64,000 nt of DNA from an uncultured Flavobacteriales bacterium. Lineage in GTDB: Bacteria > Bacteroidota > Bacteroidia > Flavobacteriales > CAJXXR01. Position 1 is the first letter of the stretch; each line of letters starts with the position of its first letter. The DNA is taken from the NCBI GenBank assembly GCA_913063375.1, contig CAJXXR010000017.1, positions 1 through 64,000 on the forward strand. The letters run 5' to 3'. The position numbers were made by a program, and so were the translations under genes. Positions 13,218 through 57,314 of the stretch are shown in pieces. The notes beneath the pieces were generated by a model that saw only the letters and a program-made list of their open reading frames with translations, was not told the DNA's origin and made no database searches.

Positions 13218-13252
13218 AAAAAGGTCCCAAAACGTTGTTTTGGGACCTTTTT
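13218..13252. terminator. Bidirectional Rho-independent terminator
   Basis: AAAAAGGTCCCAAAAC (13218-13233) pairs with GTTTTGGGACCTTTTT (13237-13252) around a 3-nt loop, with A and T runs on the two sides. It serves the convergent genes ending at 13143 (plus) and 13280 (minus). Confidence 0.92.
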
Positions 13253-15621: not shown

Positions 15622-15654
15622 AAAAAGGTCTCAAAACAACGTTTTGAAACCTTT
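15622..15654. terminator. Bidirectional terminator
   Basis: AAAAGGTCTCAAAAC (from 15622) pairs with GTTTTGAAACCTTTT with one mismatch, flanked by A and T runs. It closes the convergent genes at 15533 (plus) and 15679 (mpl, minus). Confidence 0.85.
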
Positions 15655-27741: not shown

Positions 27742-27772
27742 AAAAAAAAGGGCTATTTTAATAATAGCCCTT
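27742..27772 (-). terminator. Terminator of the 27796 gene, hairpin type shared with two neighbours
   Basis: On the minus strand, AAGGGCTATT pairs with AATAGCCCTT and is followed by eight T (A-run at 27742-27749). The same stem recurs at 29574 and 31403. Confidence 0.88.
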
Positions 27773-54957: not shown

Positions 54958-56382
54958 CTATTTGTTATCAAAATAACTGTCCTTAAAACCTATCAAGTGT
55001 AACTTTTCTGAAGCTCGAGTAAAGGCGGTATATAACCATTTATAATACGATAAATCCATATACTCTGCCGTATAGGCTGCCTGTTCAACAAATACTTCTT
55101 TCCATTGCCCACCTTGTGCTTTATGCCCTGTTAAGGCGTAGGCAAATTTAACCTGTAAGGCGTTATAATAAGGGTCTACTTTAACTTTTTCTACTTTTTT
55201 CTTAAAGCTTCTTAGATCATATTCTGCAATGATCCGCTCAAAAAGTAGTTTATAGTTTTCGTAGGTAAATCCTGGGCCATCTGTAGTCAAGGTATCCAAT
55301 AATACCTTCACCTCAATTGGATCCATATCTGGATAATCTATTAACTGCAATTTAACATCTGCAAATTGAAATCCATACGCCTCATGGATATTATTTACAT
55401 TTTCAACTGTTACTATATCACCATTGGCCAAAAATCCTGCCTCTGATTCTGGCTTTAACCAAAAGTAATTGTTTTTTACAATCATCAATTGATCCTTTTT
55501 TGAAAGTACAGTATCCCTTCCAAAAAAATGCGTTCTGATACGTTGGTTATATAGGTTGGCCCTTTTATTGGATCTGCAAAGTATCACGGTTTGATCTACT
55601 CCTTGATTTTCATAGGACTGCTGTATGGCATATTCTAGTTCATTACCATCAAAATAGGGTATAAAATCATCAAAGCGTTCCTGTTCAAAATTGGGTTCTC
55701 CAAAAGTTCCTTCATCAATATTCATCCTTAAGGAAGTAGCATTGTATAGAATTCCAGAATTTTGAGCCTGACGTTGAACATGGTTCATTTCAAATTCCTG
55801 CACATCCAAAAAATAGGTTTGTCTTACATAGGTTGCATCCAATGCAGGACTAGCATCCAATCCCACTGGAGGCAACTGTGCTGGATCCCCTACTAAAATC
55901 AATTTACAGTTCTCCCCTTTCAATAAATAAGTTACCAAGTCTTCCAATACATGGTTTCCTGAAAATCCAGAACTTTCAATCGTTTTATCATGAATCATGG
56001 AAGCCTCATCAACTATATAGATGGTACCTTTCCCTTTATTCGGTTTTAATTTAAAATGGGTAGTCCCATTTTTATCTACCGAAGGAGCATAGATTATCTT
56101 GTGTATAGTAAATGCACTCTTACGGGTTTTTTGCTGCATAACTTTAGCGGCTCTCCCTGTAGGTGCCATTAAAATTGTTTTGCGCTTCATTTTTTTCAGA
56201 GCCCTTGTTAGCGCACCAAGCATGGTGGTTTTCCCTGTCCCTGCATATCCTCTTAAAATAAAAACTTCATCTTTATTATCCGAATGAATAAAATGGGACA
56301 GTTTTTGCATAAGCTCGGATTGTTCCAGAGTAGGCTCAAATGGAAACTCTTTTCCTATATGTTCTTTAATAGTGTCGGACAA
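54958..56382 (-). CDS. RecD-like ATP-dependent DNA helicase (SF1B)
   Basis: 474 aa. Walker A GYAGTGKTT (45-53), motif Ia TILMAPTGRAAKVM, motif II YIVDEASM, motif III LILVGDPAQLPPVG, and a UvrD_C_2-type C-terminus with YALTGHKAQGGQW and LYTAFTRAS. It resembles RecD2/Dda-like helicases that act without RecBC. A 5'-3' helicase in DNA repair or replication restart is plausible. First gene of the acyltransferase-synthetase unit on the minus strand, with no close functional link. Confidence 0.88.
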   Translation of the reverse strand: MSDTIKEHIGKEFPFEPTLEQSELMQKLSHFIHSDNKDEVFILRGYAGTGKTTMLGALTRALKKMKRKTILMAPTGRAAKVMQQKTRKSAFTIHKIIYAPSVDKNGTTHFKLKPNKGKGTIYIVDEASMIHDKTIESSGFSGNHVLEDLVTYLLKGENCKLILVGDPAQLPPVGLDASPALDATYVRQTYFLDVQEFEMNHVQRQAQNSGILYNATSLRMNIDEGTFGEPNFEQERFDDFIPYFDGNELEYAIQQSYENQGVDQTVILCRSNKRANLYNQRIRTHFFGRDTVLSKKDQLMIVKNNYFWLKPESEAGFLANGDIVTVENVNNIHEAYGFQFADVKLQLIDYPDMDPIEVKVLLDTLTTDGPGFTYENYKLLFERIIAEYDLRSFKKKVEKVKVDPYYNALQVKFAYALTGHKAQGGQWKEVFVEQAAYTAEYMDLSYYKWLYTAFTRASEKLHLIGFKDSYFDNK

Positions 56383-56419
56383 AAGATAATTGTATTAATT
56401 AAAAGCCGCAATATGGCAA

Positions 56420-56633
56420 ATTCTGTAAAAAGAAATTGGTATTTGAAGGAATTCCTTGTGGAAAATAGCCAAGAAATAGATACCATTTCTAAAGCTACAA
56501 AATAGAACAGGATAATTGGAATCACAGGAGATTTTTCTCAAGGCATTCTGAACATCTTTTTCACTGGTTGTAGTTCAGATATTAGTAAAAAGTAACCTGC
56601 ACATATACCAGTAGGGTATAATGTGCGTTTTTT
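56420..56633 (+). ncRNA. Candidate structured non-coding RNA of unknown family
   Basis: Signs: a perfect palindrome AAGGAATTCCTT (56446-56457) inside a longer TGGTAT / ATACCA (~56437-56442 and ~56479-56484) closing stem; TCTGAAC (56547-56553) and GTTCAGA (56573-56579), a perfect 7-bp stem; then a terminator hairpin with a T6 tail (56599-56633). The terminator cannot serve any plus-strand gene upstream, because the nearest upstream gene runs the other way. 6S RNA, tmRNA, SRP RNA and RNase P signatures were not found. The 5' end is a guess. Confidence 0.5.
56599..56633 (+). terminator. Orphan Rho-independent terminator
   Basis: GCACAT-ATACC (56599-56609) pairs with GGTAT-A-ATGTGC (56615-56626), with one bulge, followed by G and six T. 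No plus-strand protein gene ends upstream within 13 kb except genes separated by minus-strand genes. Confidence 0.8.
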
Positions 56634-56658
56634 AGATAGCGATTTATTCGTAGAAAAA

Positions 56659-56689
56659 TTGTAAAGTATCGCTAATACTATTAAATTTG
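56659..56689 (+). promoter_or_regulatory. Bacteroidota promoter of the 56727 gene
   Basis: TTG (56659-56661), 20 nt, TAAATTTG (56682-56689). The spacing and both boxes are typical; the ATG is at 56727, giving a leader of about 33 nt. Confidence 0.85.
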
Positions 56690-56726
56690 GCGATATTGCA
56701 AAAAGAAAAACAAAAAATTAGCAAAC

Positions 56727-57314
56727 ATGAAATACGTTATTCGTCTAGTTCTCGCAGTAGTTATAGGCTTTTTAGGCTACGCCTTATATGATTCGATAAT
56801 GGAACCTGTTCGGTTTAAAAGAGTCAAAAAGGTACGTTACGCTGCGGTAATTGAAAGAATGGATGATATCAGAAAATCGCAAATGGCCTTTAAAGAGGTT
56901 AACCATAGATTTTCAAATAATTTTGATGAGTTGATTCCATTTTTGGACACTGCTCAGTTCACCATTACCCAAAGAAGAGATACTACCGTAATAAAGTACG
57001 TTAAGGAATATAGGGAGAACCAAGCATTTGAGATGACCTTAATTGATACACTTGGATATGCAAGTATCAAGGATTCTTTATTTGTACCTTCTTATGATTT
57101 AAGCCAATTAAAATACATTCCAAAAACGGAAAATGAAGTATTTGGTTTAAAAACTTCTAGCCTTAAAAAAACAGGAACTACTATTCAGGTAATGGAAGTT
57201 ACTGCTAAAAGAGAAGTAGTTTTACACGGTCAAAACCAACGTTTAATTGAGAATACTACCAAGGACCTTATTTTAGGATCACTTACAGAAGCTCATTTAA
57301 ATGGTAACTGGTAA
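56727..57314 (+). CDS. Membrane-anchored conserved protein of unknown function
   Basis: 195 aa. One N-terminal membrane segment (MKYVIRLVLAVVIGFLGYALYDSIMEPVRF) anchors a soluble domain with YAAVIERMDDIRKSQMAFKEVNHRFSNNFDELIPFLDTAQFTI, where a helix is followed by a short beta-rich domain; this looks like the prepilin/pseudopilin style seen in G-type signal proteins, but no cleavable pilin motif is present. It overlaps the DUF3822 gene by 14 bp. The gene precedes rsmD and coaD here, as often in this phylum. Confidence 0.75.
   Translation: MKYVIRLVLAVVIGFLGYALYDSIMEPVRFKRVKKVRYAAVIERMDDIRKSQMAFKEVNHRFSNNFDELIPFLDTAQFTITQRRDTTVIKYVKEYRENQAFEMTLIDTLGYASIKDSLFVPSYDLSQLKYIPKTENEVFGLKTSSLKKTGTTIQVMEVTAKREVVLHGQNQRLIENTTKDLILGSLTEAHLNGNW

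Follow-up and report, generated by a model that had tools for sequence, protein, structure and literature searches.

A candidate lineage-restricted transcription unit with its own terminator between divergent helicase and 195-aa protein genes of an uncultured Flavobacteriales bacterium

The locus and its terminator

The candidate stretch (56,420–56,633) lies within a 64,000-nt piece of DNA, here called the window, from an uncultured Flavobacteriales bacterium whose draft genome comprises 2.46 Mb in 34 contigs and is 83% complete. Its placement in Flavobacteriales follows from its hits, in which Flavobacteriaceae and other Bacteroidetes are the closest named relatives. It occupies the spacer, 344 nt long in this genome, between a divergently oriented helicase gene on the minus strand and a gene on the plus strand starting at 56727. 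The latter encodes a 195-aa protein of unknown function that is present in many genomes of the order. The features of the locus are as follows.

54958–56382, minus strand: helicase gene, AAA/UvrD-type (RecD2/PIF1-like), flanking the candidate stretch
56381–56411, minus strand: probable helicase promoter, TTG-N20-TATCTTTT
56413–56595, plus strand: 60-codon frame with one in-frame TAG, a possible small or decayed gene
56431–56489, plus strand: imperfect hairpin GAAATTGGTAT/ATACCATTTC around a 12-bp palindrome, folding z = −1.96
56492–56577, plus strand: predicted long imperfect hairpin (rod), the best-folding sub-stretch, −22.9 kcal/mol, z = −3.8
56547–56579, plus strand: 7-bp inverted repeat TCTGAAC/GTTCAGA with a 19-nt loop (arms 56547–56553 and 56573–56579)
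56599–56633, plus strand: intrinsic terminator whose 11-bp stem, containing one bulged A, closes a 5-nt loop and is followed by G and T6, −13.7 kcal/mol
56659–56689, plus strand: perfect flavobacterial promoter of the 56727 gene, TTG-N20-TAAATTTG (consensus from PMC9723704)
56727–57314, plus strand: gene for the 195-aa protein, forming the other flank of the stretch

The terminator reads GCACATATACC-AGTAG-GGTAT(A)ATGTGC followed by T6, with the stem at 56599–56626 and the T run extending to 56633. It is genuine, and among the named features it is the only one that exceeds chance. Hairpins of equal terminator-like strength within the window are almost all intergenic, and this one occurs as a single copy in the genome. 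A simple promoter/terminator scan overlooked it. The orphan terminator with T6 that the preliminary description had pointed out is therefore confirmed, as is the separate promoter that it had assigned to the 56727 gene. Its further statement that no coding gene precedes the terminator on the plus strand holds for standard open reading frames, but not for the frame at 56413–56595, which had been overlooked and which reaches the terminator.

On the other side of the spacer, the promoter box of the helicase and its TTG start codon, predicted at 56382, overlap, and either the start codon or the promoter may therefore be misplaced. A CAAAG(A/G)TA box is found near the equivalent place upstream of the helicase in relatives.

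Folding of the stretch and known RNA classes

The preliminary description had also drawn attention to a perfect 12-bp palindrome within a longer stem and to a perfect 7-bp hairpin. Both exist, the longer stem being imperfect, and both occur at frequencies within chance. A palindrome with arms of at least 6 nt, such as AAGGAATTCCTT at 56447–56458, is found in 7.6% of dinucleotide shuffles of the stretch, and the window holds 20 of them; 27% of the shuffles contain a perfect hairpin of 7 bp or more. What the case mainly shows is that palindromes and hairpins seen in the AT-rich spacers of a single genome need an estimate of chance.

As a whole, with its terminator, the stretch folds better than all 200 of its shuffled copies (z = −3.6). 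When the terminator is excluded, the 185 nt ahead of it give z values of −2.1 and −1.95, and a value of −2.1 is reached by about 9% of tiles drawn at random from the window. The rod was chosen as the best 86 nt within these 185 nt, and an equally good 86-nt piece is present in 8.75% of random tiles. The predicted structure ahead of the terminator is therefore suggestive rather than compelling.

That known RNA classes do not fit, as had been stated earlier, was borne out. No family of Rfam 15, which includes riboswitches, SRP, RNase P and tmRNA, matched the stretch at its gathering threshold, and the matches at E values up to 10 were implausible; neither a tRNA nor a tmRNA was found in the stretch.

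The flavobacterial 6S RNA (6S-Flavo, RF01685) resembles the candidate in being a small RNA with a long imperfect hairpin and its own terminator. At all 12 loci examined in the order, and also in the family member G001, it lies between zapA and rny (spacer loci L125–L136 and L139:1481–1622). The candidate lies at a different locus, lacks the characteristic AAACTCAAC...GGAGTTTA ends and is not recognised by the covariance model: RF01685 gave no match at E up to 10 in 56330–56740, whereas the 6S region of G001 reached 30.3 bits in a similar scan. A 6S identity was thus rejected. In the candidate's own genome, 83% complete, the probes used detected neither zapA nor rny, so the 6S RNA of this genome was not located.

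A side observation concerns the RF01685 model itself. Only 1 of 60 genomes sampled contains a match above its gathering score, whereas 29 match at E 0.01, and the 6S RNA of G001 attains 30 bits where the cut-off is 85. Outside a narrow group, 6S-Flavo seems to be under-called by the curated model.

Comparison with relatives

The helicase and the 56727-type gene form a syntenic pair in 27 relatives. The spacer between them measures 109–137 nt in 20 of these and 204–315 nt in the remaining 7, compared with 344 nt here; for three of the seven long spacers (L014, L027 and L028) the measured length is too great, as the protein match set in past the start codon. In most relatives, a promoter-like AAAAAAATTGTAGATTTG precedes the downstream gene. 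Given these short spacers and the downstream promoter, about 220 bp between the two promoters of the present genome are extra, and the candidate is absent from the syntenic spacers of the relatives. The extra stretch may have been gained here or lost elsewhere.

A blastn search of 398 genomes of the order returned only short matches of 20–40 nt. The best of them fall in a LysM-like gene (33 nt, 94%) and in the 3' end of a ubiE-like gene (33–36 nt, 86–91%, one genus), names that we assume from the translations of the matched genes. The E values are too optimistic for such an AT-rich query, since E 0.01 was passed by 45 genomes, against an expectation of about 4. Shuffled copies matched the comparison loci as well as the real stretch did, although the loci carrying the LysM and ubiE matches were excluded from this comparison. 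An origin as a LysM pseudogene was rejected, as this match lies in another frame and overlaps the ubiE match in a different frame; a remnant of the ubiE 3' end was rejected for the same conflict of frames, and neither has Pfam support. A repeated or mobile element was likewise discarded, the stretch being single-copy in the genome and its phage and plasmid matches being chance ones of 26–45 nt.

The preliminary description had regarded the stretch as a possible structured RNA and had proposed a covariance search in relatives. This search was run. A single-sequence covariance model of the stretch matched only itself in 198 genomes, and no homologue with covarying stems was found among the relatives compared, a set that includes two genomes of the family, one of them the candidate's own. 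Stem conservation was thus not seen among the genomes compared, an outcome that the description had itself named as speaking against its proposal. With no homologue in relatives, no Rfam match and individual stems near chance, the reading as a conserved structured RNA is not upheld.

Small RNA, small gene or insulator

The natural reading of the terminator is that it ends a plus-strand transcript independent of the flanking genes. We tentatively favour a lineage-restricted plus-strand unit of about 200 nt, which would most likely be a putative orphan small RNA. Its transcription would start somewhere in about 56390–56430 and end at the terminator at 56633. Such an RNA, should it act at all, would do so by pairing with other RNAs, and its terminator would also insulate the 56727 gene with its own promoter. 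This reading draws on the strong terminator without a standard gene upstream, the consensus promoter that follows it, the short spacers of relatives, the fold that includes the terminator and the z value of the 86-nt rod. Against it stand the lack of a homologue or covariation, the marginal fold once the terminator is removed and the coding-like character of one frame. No consensus plus-strand promoter was detected in 56200–56640, which is weak counter-evidence, because the same scan detects such a promoter ahead of only 9 of 32 long-spacer genes, the background being 17%.

Comparable RNAs have been mapped in Flavobacterium psychrophilum, where the median length of 85 independent transcribed regions is 176 bp and, of the 45 that are not antisense, 18 are strongly structured (PMC9723704). 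Like these small RNAs (Rfp1–89, for example Rfp18; PMC9723704), the candidate is an intergenic stretch of about 200 nt outside annotated genes, ends in a terminator, has predicted structure and would be independent of its flanks. The likeness is one of general features. The Rfp RNAs were seen by RNA-seq, and a good number of them are conserved across the genus, whereas the present stretch is a candidate read from sequence and has no homologue.

An alternative that we consider possible, though somewhat doubtful, is that the frame at 56413–56595 was or is translated, either as what is left of a small protein gene or as a small orphan gene, with a TAG at codon 31. The terminator would then be the gene's own, in keeping with the position of most terminators in the window, which sit after genes, and the RNA structure would be incidental. 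The frame runs from ATG at 56413 through 30 codons to TAG at 56503–56505, which interrupts it, and through 29 more codons to TAA at 56593–56595, three bases ahead of the terminator stem. Its codon usage is coding-like: the score of 0.233 is typical of genes here (0.265 ± 0.10) and lies above the off-frames of genes (−0.04 ± 0.12), being attained by 5% of the frames in intergenic sequence and by 1% of the off-frames, and the first 30 codons score 0.36. However, about 10% of shuffles contain an ATG-initiated frame of this length interrupted by no more than one stop. Searches of Pfam, NCBIfam, PDB, phages, plasmids, viral contigs, 298 genomes of the order and 396 of the phylum gave no credible protein relative; the few weak matches, at E values of 0.005–0.045 per genome, are at chance level over that many genomes. 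The short LysM and ubiE matches, mutually conflicting in two frames and without Pfam backing, also speak against the small gene.

A small gene, decayed or orphan, ranks close behind the orphan small RNA in likelihood, and an insulator alone comes third. The stretch is an ordinary, unproven candidate, and the two leading readings are not well separable on present evidence. If expressed, it would be a further small RNA or small gene restricted to one lineage in a poorly sampled flavobacterial family.

It is rather unlikely that the terminator serves only as an insulator, halting weak antisense or pervasive transcription from the 5' end of the helicase gene before the 56727 promoter, with neutral spacer ahead of it. 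The near-chance stems and the lack of conservation of the stretch would agree with this, and antisense transcripts are common in flavobacteria, with 287 regions reported in F. psychrophilum (PMC9723704). Yet most relatives have the same gene pair without the element, and their spacer is shorter by about 200 nt.

It is very improbable that the stretch serves as a leader or attenuator in which mutually exclusive pairings control read-through into the 56727 gene: positions 56435–56446 are predicted to pair with 56480–56488, 56574–56585 or the 5' arm of the terminator (56602–56610), in three duplexes of similar predicted energy (−7.1, −8.8 and −8.1 kcal/mol), but AT-rich sequence readily yields such pairings, the terminator hairpin is far stronger than the alternative, relatives lack the element ahead of the same gene, and a perfect promoter of its own serves the 56727 gene beyond the terminator. 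Slighter still is the chance that the stretch is a young regulatory RNA specific to its lineage, capable of alternative pairings, and that it also encodes a small protein of 30 residues, or of 60 through the TAG.

Elsewhere in the window, near-identical terminators were observed at two places. Three on the minus strand, at 27749, 29580 and 31412 (AAGGGCTATT...AATAGCCCTT), surround a tandem pair of proteins of about 545 aa with type IX secretion C-terminal sorting domains, an arrangement that possibly reflects a recent duplication. Two others lie 2.4 kb apart, at 13222–13248 (AAAGGTCCCAAAACGTTGTTTTGGGACCTT, with T runs on both strands) and at 15626 (AAAGGTTTCAAAACGTTGTTTTGAGACCTT).
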